From Mucilaginibacter rubeus (GTDB taxonomy: Bacteria; Bacteroidota; Bacteroidia; Sphingobacteriales; Sphingobacteriaceae), in NCBI RefSeq assembly GCF_014643835.1, contig NZ_BMKD01000009.1:248001-312000 (forward strand): a stretch of DNA of 64,000 bases, read 5' to 3'. Under the pieces are notes generated by a model. It did not search any database. It was not told where the DNA came from and worked only from the letters and a program-made list of their open reading frames with translations. The translations under genes were made by a program, and so were the position numbers. Below are positions 48,036-54,845 of the stretch, in pieces; the stretch's first letter is position 1, and every line of letters starts with the position of its first letter.

Positions 48036-48160
48036 ATATGTTATTGCGAGGAGCAGCATGGGCTAAAGTGTCAAGGGAGACGCGGCAATCTCGTAGCTAT
48101 GCAGGTCGGACATGCATTAGATACGAGATTGCCGCGCTTCGCTGGCAATGACATATTTTC
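48034..48160. repeat. Inverted repeat, GTCATTGCGAG family, copy 2
   Basis: The outer pair GAATATGTTATTGC / GGCAATGACATATTTTC and a perfect inner 15-bp pair (48081-48095 with 48122-48136) surround the loop GCAGGTCGG, which is identical to that in the copy at 21328-21459. It lies between the convergent methyltransferase and response regulator genes, so it may also act as a terminator. Confidence 0.85.
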
Positions 48161-48215: not shown

Positions 48216-48908
48216 CTACTGATTATAAACAAACTTATATCCTATCCCCCTTACAGTTTGCAGGTATTGCGGCGAATCGGCATTGGTTTCTATTTTTTTA
48301 CGCAAGCGAACGATGTGCATATCAAGGGTACGGGTATTTACATCAGCGTTGTAGCCCCAAACTTCCATCATCAGCTCCTCGCGGTTGATAACCTTGTTTT
48401 TGTTTTTGAGAAAATAAAGCAGGATCCTGTTTTCGAGGATAGTTAGCTCTATCTTACGGCCATCCCGGATAAGCAGGTGCGTGTTAGGCAGGTGCTCCAT
48501 GTTGGCAAAACGGTACGATTCGGGCTTTTCGCTGTTAAGAGAAAACTTGATTTTGTTTTCAATCAACGCCACCAATACATCCATATTATAGGGTTTGGTG
48601 ATATAGTCAGATACCCCAAAGTTATAGGCTTCTATCTTGTCAACATCCTGCGCCTTAGCGGTCATCATGATGATGAGTTTATCGAATCCTTTTTCGCGGA
48701 TATTGCCGCAAACTTCCGAGCCCGGTTTGCCGGGGAGCATCCAGTCTAACAATACAATATCAGGCTGCTCGGCCAATATCATGGTTTCAGCTTCATTGCC
48801 ATTACCGGCTTCCAGTACCTTGTACCCCTCTGATTGCAAACGTTCTGAAACCAGGAAACGCAGGTTCTCGTCATCTTCAACCAGCGCAATTTTAATTTCT
48901 TTGTTCAT
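48216..48908 (-). CDS. OmpR-family response regulator
   Basis: 230 residues. The receiver domain has the acidic pocket EDDE (about 11-14), phosphoacceptor Asp55 (IVLLDWMLPG) and Lys105 (DYITKPYN). The winged-helix domain (about 130-228; LIRDGRKIELTILENRILLYFLKNKNKVINREELMMEVWG) ends with the QYLQTVRGIGYKF motif. Partner of the histidine kinase, whose stop lies 3 bases upstream. The combination resembles RprXY of Bacteroides, but homology at that level is not tested. Confidence 0.95.
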   Translation of the reverse strand: MNKEIKIALVEDDENLRFLVSERLQSEGYKVLEAGNGNEAETMILAEQPDIVLLDWMLPGKPGSEVCGNIREKGFDKLIIMMTAKAQDVDKIEAYNFGVSDYITKPYNMDVLVALIENKIKFSLNSEKPESYRFANMEHLPNTHLLIRDGRKIELTILENRILLYFLKNKNKVINREELMMEVWGYNADVNTRTLDMHIVRLRKKIETNADSPQYLQTVRGIGYKFVYNQ

Positions 48909-48911
48909 ATC

Positions 48912-50558
48912 TTAATTTTCGTATGGAAGCGTAACTATAAATTCCGAACCTTCGTTAACCTTACTGTAAACAGTTATATCACCGTTCATAAAATTAACCA
49001 GTTCTTTACAAAATGCCAAACCCAGGCCAACGCTCCCGTTTTGATTGTATTGGTTTTCTATTCTGTAAAACTTCTTAAAAACGTTATTCAGTTCATTTTT
49101 CGGTATCCCTATCCCCTTATCAGCAAACGAAAACACAATATTCCGTTTTTCCTGTGAAATATTGATGAACAGCTCCTTTTGCTGAGGGTGCGAATACTTG
49201 TATGCATTTTCAATAAGGTTTTGAAAAACACTCCCTAATAATACAGGATCAGTATAAAAAGTTTCAACCCTGTTGATTTTAAATTTAATATTAAAATCAG
49301 CGTACTTTATTTTAAAGGTATCAATATACCGGCTAATAAAGTTCTCTATATCAATTTCTTCCTCTTTTAGCGTAATGGATTTATTTTCAATCTGCGTAAA
49401 GGAAAGCAGCTTGTTCATCAACTCATTCAGCTTATCGGCTTCCTCGTCCAGTATCTTACCGTAATGGCGGCGTTGCCTTTCGGTAAGTTCGCCATCGCCA
49501 CGTAAATTTGACCCTGCTATTTTAATTACACTTACCGGTGTTTTAAACTCGTGGGTAAAGTTGTTGATAAAATCATACTGAAGTTTGAACAGTTTCATAT
49601 TCACGTTCAGGTTACGGTATATAAGCCAGCCTATTAGCATTAAAAACAGGGTCATTAATAATACGATAGCTCCGATAGGCATAAAGCGGCGGTTAATTTC
49701 GGCAGTTAAATAACCCTGTGCCGAACTAAAGAAGAGCTTATAATCAGAAAAAGCCACTGGTAATGACACCTCGGTTATCAGTTTATCTCCCTCGCTGTCA
49801 ATAGGGTCATATACTACGGGTTGAATAGATACATTTTCGTACAGCTCGGGATGCGTATTTTTCACCTTGATCAGGTACGGGTCGAGGTAAAAGGTCATCA
49901 TGTTTTGCTTGTATGAAGCCCCTTTGCTGTTACCCAACATTTGCATGTCACGATAGATACGTACATCCTCGCGCCTGAGAACATTGGTATAACTGATCTT
50001 GTCGGGTTTCACATCCCAAAAAGCTTTAAAAAGTTCATCCTGACTTGATACGCGTGATGTATCTGAAAAGGCTATATAATTACTTAATTTAATAGCCATC
50101 TCTCTGAAATCATCTTCATTGACTGTTCTCCGCTGCTCAGCCCCGTACACCTTGTCATTAACGTGCCAATACTGATAAACCGCCTTAGCAGCTATGTTCA
50201 AATTATTTTTGCGTACGGTCATCGTAGTTTTGCCGCCAATGAGGGCATCATAAAAGATAACCCGGCGCACAAAATTATAATCATGAAAAACAGAGGCCGC
50301 ATATTTACCTGCCGATGCCGAATCAAGAAAACCCTGGTAGGAGGTTATTTCAGGGATCTTATTCTGAAAAAACTCATAATACGGCTTAATGGTTTGTTCC
50401 AGTACCTCAACCTTTTTTGAGGAAAACTCATTTTCAACATACTTGGCGGTGAGATTATAAGATATAAACAGGGCTACCACAAAAGTTATGGAAATGAACA
50501 CCAGGAAAATGGTGATCAGCGTAAAGTTTTGCCGGTAAGCGTTTTTCTGTAATGCCAT
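48912..50558 (-). CDS. Sensor histidine kinase with large periplasmic domain
   Basis: 548 residues. Membrane helix 1 is about residues 12-34 and helix 2 about 292-315, leaving a periplasmic sensor of about 255 residues without a recognised PAS/Cache motif. The dimerisation domain has His336 (NNFTHEFKTPVSV). The catalytic domain has N box (NLIENAYKYS), G1 (FADKGIGIP) and G2 (GLGLAFCKELV), all intact. It lies 6 bases after the S9-like lipoprotein gene and 3 bases before the response regulator, so all three form an operon. Confidence 0.94.
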   Translation of the reverse strand: MALQKNAYRQNFTLITIFLVFISITFVVALFISYNLTAKYVENEFSSKKVEVLEQTIKPYYEFFQNKIPEITSYQGFLDSASAGKYAASVFHDYNFVRRVIFYDALIGGKTTMTVRKNNLNIAAKAVYQYWHVNDKVYGAEQRRTVNEDDFREMAIKLSNYIAFSDTSRVSSQDELFKAFWDVKPDKISYTNVLRREDVRIYRDMQMLGNSKGASYKQNMMTFYLDPYLIKVKNTHPELYENVSIQPVVYDPIDSEGDKLITEVSLPVAFSDYKLFFSSAQGYLTAEINRRFMPIGAIVLLMTLFLMLIGWLIYRNLNVNMKLFKLQYDFINNFTHEFKTPVSVIKIAGSNLRGDGELTERQRRHYGKILDEEADKLNELMNKLLSFTQIENKSITLKEEEIDIENFISRYIDTFKIKYADFNIKFKINRVETFYTDPVLLGSVFQNLIENAYKYSHPQQKELFINISQEKRNIVFSFADKGIGIPKNELNNVFKKFYRIENQYNQNGSVGLGLAFCKELVNFMNGDITVYSKVNEGSEFIVTLPYEN

Positions 50559-50564
50559 GTCGGC

Positions 50565-52457
50565 TTATGGTTTAACCCGCATATTCTTATCCAAAAACTT
50601 CTCTATTTCGGCATACATTTCCATACGGTTATGTTCGCTCCTGAAATATGCACGTTCATTGGGTTTTAAAAAATATTTCACATCAACGTTACGTTTACGC
50701 AGCTCGCGTACAAACTGGTTAAGCTCGCTGATATTAGCCCGCTGATCTTTGGCACCCTGGAATATAATTAGAGGAACCTTAATTTTATCGGTATGAAAAA
50801 CCGGCGATATCGCCCTCAACTGATCTGCGTCAGTTTCGGGGTTGCCAACCATTTCGTAAGTCATTTTTAAATAAGGCTTAACAAACGGCGGTGCATCCTT
50901 GATATAGGTAAAAAAGTTAATAAGGCCGTATTGTACCACCGCACAACTATATAACTCGGGATGAAAAGACACACCATAAAGCGCTGAAAAGCCGCCAAAA
51001 CGCCCGCCAAAAATGGCAATCTTTTTAGGGTTTGCAACTTTAGTATCAATAAGCCAGTGTACCCCATCGGTAATATCATCCTGAATTTTGCCGCCTACCT
51101 GTTTATATCCCGCACTTCGGAAGGCCTTGCCATAGCCTGTTGATCCACGGTAATTAACCTGGAACACGGCATACCCACGATTGGCTAAAAACTGCACCTG
51201 GTCATCATATCCCCAGGTATCGCGTCCCCATGGGCCATCGTGCGGCATAACTACTACAGGGTAGTTTTCATTTTTATCGCCCCTTGGCAGGGTTAAATAA
51301 CCATTAATCAGCAAGCCATCGCGCGCATGGTATGATATAGGTTTCATGGCGCATAATTCGGCAGGTACAAGGCTTGAGTTAATATCGCTTAGCTTGGTTA
51401 ACCTGCCATTGTTTTTTTCAAAAAGATAGTATGAACCGGGATTACGGTCGGTGTAAGTGTTGAGGATAAATTTATTCTCAGAGCTGTCGCGGTCAACCAC
51501 CCTGATCTCATTACCCTTAAGCTGTTGCTGAATGGTTTGATACATCTGCTCAACATCAGGTGCCAGAAAATGCTTACGCGGCATTGATTCGTCCCAGCCG
51601 GTAAACTCTATCCGGTGTTTATTTTTTGAATATTCAAAACTGGTGATATCCGCTTTGCTGCAGCTAAAAATTGTCCTTTCTTCCTTGCCATTCTCCGCAT
51701 TGATCTCAACCAGGGCCGTCTTATCGCGGTTTACGTTTGATAGCGCATAGAAATAATTTTTTATACCTGTAAAAGCTATAGGCCTTACTGCATTCTTAAA
51801 ATTATTTTCGATTATAGGCTTAAATGGCTTATCCTCATCGGGGCGGAATAAGATGGTTTCGTTAACCCCGTCTGATGCCCTTTCAAGCCTGATCCTGCCG
51901 TCGGCATCTGCAAACCACTCAGTAATATTACCCGGGTTAAGCAGGTAAGTCTTCATTTCGCCGGTTTTTACGTTGAGGCGGTAAACATCAAAGTTACCCG
52001 GATCACGCTCATTAGTTTTAATAGTGATGATATCTGGCTGCTGCCGGTTACGGTTAACCAGGCCAATCCTCACATTACCGAACGATAATATAATCCGGCT
52101 TTTATTGGTAGCCACATCAAAAGCATACATCTTAACCGAATCGGTAGCGATAAGATCCTGCGAAAAAACAAGCTGGTTATTGTATGTCCAGAAATAATCA
52201 CCTCTGATTGAATAGTCCTCAAATTGAGTAACCATTCGTTCCTTACCATCGGCTAATGACTGTATAAATATGTTTTGCTTATCTTTAAATGGCTTAAGGT
52301 ATGATACATATTTACCATCGGGCGAAATTCGGTAAAAGCTCCTTTCGGGTGTTTTAAAAAAGTCAATAATAGGTATTTGCCTTACTTTACTCCTGTTGCA
52401 GGAAAAGAAGACGACAATGCAACTCACAATAAGAAAAAATCTGACCCGGCTCAACAT
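50565..52457 (-). CDS. S9 (prolyl oligopeptidase)-like lipoprotein lacking catalytic Ser and His
   Basis: 630 residues. Lipobox VFFSC puts the lipidated Cys at residue 20. A beta-propeller-like half (about 30-360) precedes an alpha/beta hydrolase domain (about 370-630: YPVVVMPHDGPWGRDTWGYDDQVQFLANRGYAVFQVNYRGSTG). Where S9 enzymes have GxSxGG this protein reads GGRFGG, so residue 486 is Arg (codon CGT at 51000-51002). Asp571 is kept (FQGAKDQR). The expected GHGF His region reads ERAYFRSEHNR, with Ala603 in the His position. Two of three triad residues are lost with no frameshift, so it is probably a non-enzymatic binding protein. First gene of an operon with a histidine kinase and response regulator. 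Confidence 0.88.
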   Translation of the reverse strand: MLSRVRFFLIVSCIVVFFSCNRSKVRQIPIIDFFKTPERSFYRISPDGKYVSYLKPFKDKQNIFIQSLADGKERMVTQFEDYSIRGDYFWTYNNQLVFSQDLIATDSVKMYAFDVATNKSRIILSFGNVRIGLVNRNRQQPDIITIKTNERDPGNFDVYRLNVKTGEMKTYLLNPGNITEWFADADGRIRLERASDGVNETILFRPDEDKPFKPIIENNFKNAVRPIAFTGIKNYFYALSNVNRDKTALVEINAENGKEERTIFSCSKADITSFEYSKNKHRIEFTGWDESMPRKHFLAPDVEQMYQTIQQQLKGNEIRVVDRDSSENKFILNTYTDRNPGSYYLFEKNNGRLTKLSDINSSLVPAELCAMKPISYHARDGLLINGYLTLPRGDKNENYPVVVMPHDGPWGRDTWGYDDQVQFLANRGYAVFQVNYRGSTGYGKAFRSAGYKQVGGKIQDDITDGVHWLIDTKVANPKKIAIFGGRFGGFSALYGVSFHPELYSCAVVQYGLINFFTYIKDAPPFVKPYLKMTYEMVGNPETDADQLRAISPVFHTDKIKVPLIIFQGAKDQRANISELNQFVRELRKRNVDVKYFLKPNERAYFRSEHNRMEMYAEIEKFLDKNMRVKP

Positions 52458-52558: not shown

Positions 52559-52611
52559 ATAATATGGCAAACCGGCTTAAGCAATCCTATTAATTGATTA
52601 TTTTTGAACAG

Positions 52612-54420
52612 ATGAGGGCTTTATATATTGTTATTATTCTTGCTTTTTGCTTTAGCGGCAGGCTGCTTGCACAGAACAATGAACTGCTGCTGGCCAGGCA
52701 ATACAATGCTAACGGCGAACCGCAAAAAGCACTCGAAATTTATCAAAAGTTATACAAGCAAAACAACGAGAATTACTATAGCGTATACGTAAATACACTG
52801 CTCAACCTTAAAAAATTTGATGAAGCCGAAAGCATCACCAAAAAACTGATCCGCCGCCATCCTGATGATCACCAGTATGCTATAATGCTGGGTAACATTT
52901 ACACGCAGGAAGGCAATATGGCCAAAGCTGACGCTATTTATGACGACCTGATCAAAAGCCTCCCGGCCGACCAGGGTGAAATAGCCGCCCTGGCATCCCA
53001 ATTTTACCAAAGCGCTAATATTGATTATGCAATCAAAATTTTTCAGCAAGGACGGAAACTGCTTAAAAATGATAACATGTTTACTTATGAGCTTATTAAC
53101 CTTTACCGTTTTAAACGCGACAAAATATCCCTCACCGACGAATACCTGAACTTTTTACCTCAAAACCCCAATTTTATAAACCAGGCCGAAAATGCTTTTT
53201 CAAATGTATACGAAGGTAGCGCCGATTATGATATGCTTAAAACAGCTTTGCTGAGGCGCATCCAAAAAGATCCGCAGCAAACCATTTATGCTGATCTGCT
53301 TACCTGGCAATACCTGCAGCAAAAAGAATTTGATCTGGCCCTTAACCAGGCACTTGCCTTAAGTCGCCGGCAAAATGACGATGGTAACAGCATCTATGAT
53401 CTCTGCCGTACCTTCATTGCCAATGAGGCTTATGACGAAGCTATCCGGGGATATGAATACATCATCAGCAAAGGGAAAACAACGCCATTGTACATCCCCT
53501 CAAAAATTGAACTGATCAACACCAAAAACCTGAAAGTAACATCGGGCAAATACCTGCCCGAAGATTTGCTTGGACTTGAAAAGGATTATAACGACCTGCT
53601 CACCGAGTTTGGACGTAACAGCAGCACCGCTTTTGCCATGCAAAAACTGGCCAACCTGCAAGCCTTTAAGCTTCACAAACTTAAGGACGCCCAAAAACTG
53701 CTGGAAGAAGCTACCAGGCTAAATGATATCAGGCCAAACCTGTTAGCCGATTGCAAGCTTGATTTAGGCGATATTTACCTGCTTAACAACCAACCCTGGG
53801 AAGCCACGCTGCTTTACAGCCAGGTTGAGAAAGATTTCCCGGCTACTGCCATTGGGCAGGATGCTTTATTCAGAAACGCGAAAATGGCTTATTATACCGG
53901 AGATTTCACCTGGGCAAAGGGACAGTTGGATGTGCTGAAAGTTGCTACATCGCAATTAATAGCAAATGATGCACTTAACCTATTGCTGCTGATCCAAGAT
54001 AATCTTGCTGCCGATAGCAGCGGGTCGGCGCTTAAAGTGTACGCCCGAGCCGATTTGCAGATTTTTGCCCAAAATCCCGAAAAGGCAGTAATGATATTAG
54101 ACAGTATTGGCAAAAAGTTCCCGAATAATGCTTTAGATGATGATATCATGATGTCAAAATCTCGCATTCTGATCCAGCAGAAGGATTATGCCGGAGCGGT
54201 ACCTTTATTAAAGAAAATTGTTGAAGAGCACCCCGCCGATCTTTGGGCCGATGATGCCGTATTTATGTTAGGCGACATTTATGAAAACAGGTTGAACGAT
54301 AAAACCACTGCCAGGAACTACTACCAAAAAATCATAACTGATTATCCCGGCAGCCTCTGGATCAACGAAGCCCGCAAACGTTTCAGAGTATTAAGGGGCG
54401 ATAAACCGGATGCGTCCTGA
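52612..54420 (+). CDS. Secreted tetratricopeptide-repeat protein
   Basis: 602 residues from the ATG at 52612; a TTG at 52594 would add six. A signal peptide (ends RLLAQ, about 21) is followed by TPR-like helical pairs throughout (GEPQKALEIYQKLYKQ, KFDEAESITKKLIRRHPDDHQYAIMLGNIY, GDIYENRLNDKTTARNYYQKIITDYPGSLW). It probably serves as a periplasmic or outer-membrane scaffold; no enzymatic domain is seen. Resembles outer-membrane assembly lipoprotein-like TPR proteins, but no lipobox Cys is present. Divergent from the pseudopeptidase operon. Confidence 0.85.
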   Translation: MRALYIVIILAFCFSGRLLAQNNELLLARQYNANGEPQKALEIYQKLYKQNNENYYSVYVNTLLNLKKFDEAESITKKLIRRHPDDHQYAIMLGNIYTQEGNMAKADAIYDDLIKSLPADQGEIAALASQFYQSANIDYAIKIFQQGRKLLKNDNMFTYELINLYRFKRDKISLTDEYLNFLPQNPNFINQAENAFSNVYEGSADYDMLKTALLRRIQKDPQQTIYADLLTWQYLQQKEFDLALNQALALSRRQNDDGNSIYDLCRTFIANEAYDEAIRGYEYIISKGKTTPLYIPSKIELINTKNLKVTSGKYLPEDLLGLEKDYNDLLTEFGRNSSTAFAMQKLANLQAFKLHKLKDAQKLLEEATRLNDIRPNLLADCKLDLGDIYLLNNQPWEATLLYSQVEKDFPATAIGQDALFRNAKMAYYTGDFTWAKGQLDVLKVATSQLIANDALNLLLLIQDNLAADSSGSALKVYARADLQIFAQNPEKAVMILDSIGKKFPNNALDDDIMMSKSRILIQQKDYAGAVPLLKKIVEEHPADLWADDAVFMLGDIYENRLNDKTTARNYYQKIITDYPGSLWINEARKRFRVLRGDKPDAS

Positions 54421-54519
54421 TAGGTCATTGTTTCATTGCGTCATTAGGTTATTACTTAGCAAACGGACTTTACTTTTATGCCTGACCAATGACATAATGA
54501 CCAAATGACTTAGTGACTA
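54421..54519. repeat. Iterated-word inverted repeat (GTCATT type)
   Basis: The left half (54421-54453: AGGTCATTG...GTCATTAGGTTATT) and the right half (54482-54519: CTGACCAATGACATAATGACC plus AAATGACTTAG) are complementary in words. It lies between two plus-strand genes. Confidence 0.75.
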
Positions 54520-54542
54520 ATCAAAAATGATTATTTTTGAAA

Positions 54543-54845
54543 ATGATTGTATACAACGATACCATAATAATTGACGAAACCATTCATGACGAATGGCTTA
54601 ACTATATCAAAACCATCCATATCCCGGCTATCATGGCTACCGGACATTTCAGCTCGTACCGCATCCTGACTGTTATTGATTCGCCAAACGAAGGGGTTAC
54701 CTACTGTATTCAATACAATGCTGATAGCATTGAGCATTTTCAGCAGTTTTACATGAACCACCTGCATAAATTCCAGGCTACCCACCAGGAAAAATTTAAC
54801 GAAAAATTTGTGATGTTCAATACCCTGATGGAAGAGGTGGAATAA
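54543..54845 (+). CDS. DUF4286 family protein
   Basis: 100 residues from the ATG at 54543 (MIVYNDTIIIDETIHDEWLNYIKTIHIPAIMATGHFSSYRI). The pattern matches DUF4286, a ferredoxin-like-fold family of unknown function in Bacteroidota. It is cytosolic. A TTG at 54537 is possible but not needed. Confidence 0.88.
   Translation: MIVYNDTIIIDETIHDEWLNYIKTIHIPAIMATGHFSSYRILTVIDSPNEGVTYCIQYNADSIEHFQQFYMNHLHKFQATHQEKFNEKFVMFNTLMEEVE

Follow-up and report, generated by a model that had tools for sequence, protein, structure and literature searches.

The locus described here lies in a window of 64,000 nucleotides from Mucilaginibacter rubeus (contig NZ_BMKD01000009.1, positions 248,001 to 312,000). Numbered from the first base of that window, its genes are as follows.

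48216..48908, minus strand: OmpR/PhoB-type response regulator (230 aa)
48912..50558, minus strand: sensor histidine kinase (548 aa; HisKA at residues 329 to 392, HATPase_c at 437 to 547, periplasmic part at approximately 38 to 293)
50565..52457, minus strand: S9 (acylaminoacyl-peptidase-like) pseudoenzyme lipoprotein (630 aa)
52594..54420, plus strand: divergent TPR-repeat gene, not claimed as a functional part of the system

As an earlier note on this DNA had described, the S9 lipoprotein is full length and is encoded 6 nt ahead of the histidine kinase and its regulator. Of the three proteins, the regulator varies least, with a mean distance of 0.28 as opposed to 0.44 (kinase core) and 0.78 (S9 protein). 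We could not assign the pair to a named two-component system, as the NCBIfam matches listed (the best 25 of 75 for the kinase and the best 25 of 96 for the regulator) fall under their curated cut-offs. The TPR gene is present at 147 of the 180 fetched loci and is followed in the window by a DUF4286 gene (the two span 52594 to 54845). At the opposite end, where a methyltransferase gene and the regulator gene converge, they are separated by an inverted repeat (positions 48074 to 48143) with 26-nt arms that are 85% complementary and spaced by 18 nt; a 26-base piece of it occurs only once in the window.

The window protein contains a Peptidase_S9 domain and has the propeller and alpha/beta hydrolase fold, which is intact as judged from the structural model. 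Its best sequence match in the PDB is an acylaminoacyl-type peptidase (PDB code 5l8s; 1.4e-38), the best DPP4-type match being at 1.1e-15, and all four of its NCBIfam matches fall under the curated cut-off. The loss of the catalytic triad reported previously is borne out, with Arg486 at the position of the nucleophilic Ser, Ala603 at that of the His, and Asp571 retained. Additionally, HDGP replaces the HGGP motif at residues 406 to 409 (Asp407). By its residues, the protein is an S9 homolog and not an S9 peptidase. The predicted lipobox also stands, in that Cys20 follows a hydrophobic stretch and a Cys is found here in all 172 family rows of our alignment; the lipobox pattern is seen in 140 of 145 kinase-linked rows, versus 19 of the 27 out-of-family relatives with a readable N terminus. 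The surface export signal described for Bacteroidetes lipoproteins is K-(D/E)2 or Q-A-(D/E)2 (PMC5080379). Because two or more acidic residues directly after the lipid-anchor Cys are rare in comparison (15 of 172 rows), the sequences suggest that the S9 lipoprotein faces the periplasm.

Searches at E ≤ 1e-60 recovered the S9 protein in 190 of the 201 genomes of Sphingobacteriaceae, encompassing 22 of 25 genera. The 11 genomes without a match comprise six of genus g27, one of genus g37 (G107; 2.3 Mb, 100% complete) with no match to the S9 protein, the kinase sensor, or the regulator, one (G192) in which the S9 gene is cut by the contig start, and three of 71 to 76% completeness in which neither the S9 protein nor the sensor was found. 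Among the 180 loci examined, near copies included, the S9 gene lies ahead of the kinase gene on the same strand at all 171 where both are visible, with a gap of at most 25 nt at 161 of these (full range, -155 to 500 nt). The other nine loci are an outsider (L023), three where the sequence piece ends just past the S9 gene (L161, L205, and L208), and five from genus g27, in which the S9 gene is missing. Likewise, the kinase gene lies ahead of the regulator gene, both on one strand, at 173 of 173 loci, again counting near copies. By gene order, the trio is a family-wide operon, and we infer co-expression from that order. In five g27 genomes of about 2 Mb (L219 to L223), the kinase and regulator are kept and the S9 gene is cleanly absent beside the syntenic TPR gene; neither the S9 protein nor the sensor was found in the sixth (83% complete). 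Because these five genomes keep the kinase and regulator without it, the S9 protein is not strictly required by them and would act as a modulator or as one input among several.

We then compared the catalytic columns across the 172 family rows, a set that includes near copies and some strains twice and from which a 503-aa copy (L229), a copy with a broken frame (L230), and the outsider L023 were left out. The nucleophile column holds Gly in 121 rows, Ser in 32, Arg in 18, and Trp in 1, and the His column holds His in 35 rows and many other residues in the rest, with no common substitute. The Arg/Ala pair of the window protein, for which the earlier note had proposed a test of conservation, is consequently no conserved feature of the family. 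Within the window's group, Arg486 is shared by 12 named Mucilaginibacter rows, which encode it by CGT, CGG, or AGG and have Gly rows intermixed; we therefore set it aside as a conserved residue, as a kept Arg and repeated Gly-to-Arg changes are indistinguishable where Gly rows stand between the Arg rows. The Asp is kept in 171 of 172 rows, the sole loss being an Asn in L276 (genome G160), a protein that also has a Gly/Pro/His-rich insertion in place of the His loop.

The full Ser-His pair is missing in 144 of the 172 rows, and in 133 of these both residues are lost. The seven rows that lack the Ser and keep the His all lie outside Mucilaginibacter, whereas the four that keep the Ser and lack the His are all from that genus, and the two of them placed on the tree stand among Gly rows. 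Given this distribution, the Ser was probably lost before the His. The pair is found in none of the 71 named Mucilaginibacter rows and in none of the 5 rows with genus code g1. Beyond the triad, most dead rows have other residues in place of Tyr509 and Tyr525 (retained in 15% and 35%, respectively), and the second residue of the HGGP motif, which is conserved in all 20 outsiders compared, is Asp in 82 of the 144 dead rows and in 0 of the 28 active ones. This last difference, together with the joint loss of Ser and His in 133 rows and the lack of a common substitute for the His, makes it very improbable that the S9 protein still cuts by means of other residues, a proposal with which the near-invariant Asp571 and the intact fold in the model would agree.

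Both Ser and His are kept inside the operon in 28 of the 172 rows, or in 24 of the 128 that remain once rows at least 85% alike are removed. The earlier note had named such homologs in the same gene context as a finding that would tell against its reading; they do occur, and we take them to reflect the ancestral state and not to be a refutation. Searches outside the family recovered 56 S9 matches, of which we fetched 40. In 39 of these 40 the Ser, Asp, and His are all kept, and the triad is likewise kept in the two (L023 and L025) seen among the 16 outside the fetched set. The same holds for nine intact S9 paralogs encoded elsewhere in family genomes (32 to 40% identity; taken from 10 genomes chosen mostly for having more than one S9 match), such that the triad is kept in 48 of the 49 S9 proteins examined outside the kinase linkage. 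As Ser- and His-bearing copies persist in the operon and 39 of 40 outside relatives keep the triad, catalysis is, on the sequence evidence, the ancestral condition, with about 12 losses within the operon lineage. On a 129-row tree computed with the catalytic columns omitted, the state changes 11 times, and the starred branches make at least 10 of these changes necessary; trees of 168 and 177 rows with losses counted as irreversible each give 12 losses in the family. The unlinked S9 proteins show fewer losses per unit of branch length than the linked ones (P = 0.03, or 0.009 without L333), a modest difference with rough P values, since FastTree branch lengths were taken at face value. The operon does not preclude peptidase work, as is indicated by the members that retain both Ser and His.

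The single out-of-family exception (L333:3054-7329; genome G358) is a dead S9 lipoprotein with Phe at the Ser and Arg at the His, encoded head to head with, and 112 nt from, a different kinase and regulator. On our trees it falls inside the kinase-linked family clade beside two Ser- and His-bearing rows (support, 0.94 or lower), and it may be misplaced through long-branch effects or have been transferred. No close relative of it was found among the 80 genomes searched, the best other match being at 33%. The kinase sensor of the family was found at 0 of the 40 fetched out-of-family loci (mostly with 3- to 5-kb flanks, some shortened by contig ends), and two of these loci (L297 and L333) lie near an unrelated kinase and regulator.

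The concentration of catalytic loss in the kinase-linked lineage, and the position of the S9 gene directly ahead of the kinase at 171 of 171 loci, bear on whether the S9 protein might instead be an output driven by the regulator, acting as an envelope scaffold or a chaperone of peptides with no contact with the kinase. Both observations argue against such a role; for it speak the persistence of the kinase and regulator without the S9 protein in five genomes and the fact that co-expression is read from gene order alone. On balance, we consider it unlikely but worth keeping in view.

The contention that the dead enzyme is not a product of random decay is upheld by the rates of substitution of the dead copies. 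Across 84 pairs of dead S9 proteins, which are not independent, dN/dS ranges from 0.017 to 0.095 with a median of 0.050, and across the 3 pairs that keep the triad it ranges from 0.042 to 0.083 with a median of 0.069 (Nei-Gojobori estimates, approximate where dS is above 1). Moreover, of the 13 relatives compared with the window protein, 6 have a value undefined by saturation, and in all 7 with both values defined the constraint on the dead hydrolase domain exceeds that on the propeller. As judged from these values, the dead S9 protein is kept under strong purifying selection. Two copies depart from the full-length form: in the single-contig genome G181 (L230:2991-4939) the frame is split within the hydrolase domain into 486 and 175 residues, which is either real or a sequencing error, and in G162 (L229:3298-4809) the protein of 503 aa is about 125 residues short, with a kinase and regulator of normal length. 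These two copies and the drift of the Ser and His columns in dead rows are what plain decay after the enzyme became unneeded would predict; set against the median dN/dS, the Cys present in 172 of 172 rows, and the constraint on the dead hydrolase domain, we give that explanation hardly any credence.

The periplasmic part of the kinase (residues 38 to 293, approximately) had been noted to lack a recognized sensor motif. This holds at the level of sequence, as no convincing match was recovered and the Pfam families listed for 38 members (the best 25 of 35) include no Cache model. In the structural model, this part resembles the ligand-binding domains of chemoreceptors and kinases, and it may be a divergent double-Cache domain. 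It shares 8 to 9% identity with the sensors of vpHK1S (PDB code 3lid) and KinD (PDB code 4jgo), which we take to be Cache domains. Unlike double-Cache sensor kinases, it has a narrow phyletic spread: nearly every genome searched in the order (120 of 121) has a match to the sensor half, and in the class such a match turned up in 10 of 295 genomes, all 10 from Sphingobacteriaceae, whereas 66 of those 295 contain S9 relatives at E ≤ 1e-50.

The resemblance of this sensor to ligand-binding domains and the absence of the S9 gene from g27 are compatible with a kinase that detects a small ligand by means of its own Cache pocket, with the S9 protein as a loosely linked passenger. The family-wide linkage and a dN/dS of about 0.05 are hard to reconcile with a passenger. 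Furthermore, the S9-less genus has lost 3 of 23 otherwise conserved sensor residues, versus 0 to 1 in each of 13 other genera, a weak point in that its kinase core has also changed more (4 of 81 conserved residues versus 0 to 3 in other genera). We regard the passenger explanation as improbable. The three residues lost in g27 (Tyr74, Lys274, and Glu287) were considered as a map of an S9 interface and rejected, being too few and accompanied by the changes in the kinase core. Correlated evolutionary rates were likewise discarded as evidence of contact: in a mirror-tree analysis of 95 loci, in which the kinase core, the regulator, and the TPR gene served as controls, the partial r of 0.34 between the S9 protein and the sensor is below that between the S9 protein and the regulator (0.46) and barely above those of the TPR-gene controls (0.25 with the S9 protein and 0.30 with the sensor), and is thus not specific.

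The reading that we prefer, and hold to be reasonably probable, is that of a sensing system with three parts, all encoded by the operon, in which the S9 pseudopeptidase is a noncatalytic, lipid-anchored accessory subunit of the kinase. In this scenario, a catalytically active S9 peptidase, either secreted or lipid anchored, would have joined the operon of a double-Cache-like kinase and regulator in the family's ancestor and gained a second, noncatalytic job as a periplasm-facing accessory subunit, presumably by binding the kinase. It would tune the kinase, probably through occupancy of the old substrate cavity. Because the accessory job would need no cutting, the Ser and then the His could be lost about 12 times, while selection would maintain the operon and, in the protein, its lipid anchor, Asp, and fold. 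Living species span three stages, with both Ser and His, without the Ser but with the His, and fully dead. In the window protein the enzyme step would be gone (Arg486, Ala603, and Asp407), such that only the accessory job can remain, and in most species the accessory task alone would be under selection. A more specific version is plausible but tentative, and we think it rather less likely than not to hold in full: an enzyme that trimmed or destroyed an extracellular peptide signal would have been turned, independently about a dozen times, into a pure receptor, with the old cavity binding the peptide and its state being passed to the double-Cache-like kinase of a peptide-sensing three-component system present across the family.

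Pairings of an accessory lipoprotein with a two-component system are exemplified by NlpE-CpxA. Among animal proteins, the S9B pseudopeptidases DPP6 and DPP10 resemble the operon protein in having the S9 fold and a lost nucleophile and, on our reading, in serving as a subunit of a membrane signaling protein, in their case the Kv4 channel. According to the account on which we draw, fly DPP10 is both a channel subunit and a peptidase, and its mammalian relative, in which Gly replaces the Ser, is a subunit only (PMC4873792). That Gly is also the commonest state in the operon S9 proteins, and the operon's Ser- and His-bearing copies may resemble the dual-function fly protein. In contrast to DPP6 and DPP10, the operon protein is bacterial, lipid anchored, and by sequence nearer to acylaminoacyl peptidases than to DPP4; its partner would be a histidine kinase, as read from gene order alone, and there were about 12 losses. 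Closer in gene context is the lipoprotein QseG, which is encoded with a kinase and regulator and is described as activating the kinase QseE directly (PMC12691602). As far as that account goes, QseG is not presented as a relative of an enzyme, whereas the putative accessory part here is a 630-residue pseudopeptidase. The gibberellin receptor GID1, which is not known to have a propeller, offers a third comparison. It has been argued to derive from a hydrolase through loss of the His (PMC3531792), which parallels the path from alpha/beta hydrolase to receptor through loss of a triad residue, and its ligand lies in the old active site; it is, however, as described there, a plant protein that keeps the Ser, and ours is a bacterial S9 protein with a propeller. 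We found no description of an S9 pseudopeptidase paired with a two-component system among the matches listed in the open-licence PMC literature. The accessory lipoprotein of a two-component system is a known kind of component; what would be new is an S9 pseudopeptidase as that component, together with its clear evolutionary series.

The change from enzyme to receptor has often been argued from a few end states, such as DPP10 and GID1. Here, a single operon in one family offers triad-keeping, half-dead, and dead lipoproteins beside the same kinase, so that one can test directly, in soil bacteria, in what order the changes came and whether signaling needs catalysis. It would also supply the first candidate input for a two-component system that is near-universal in the family.
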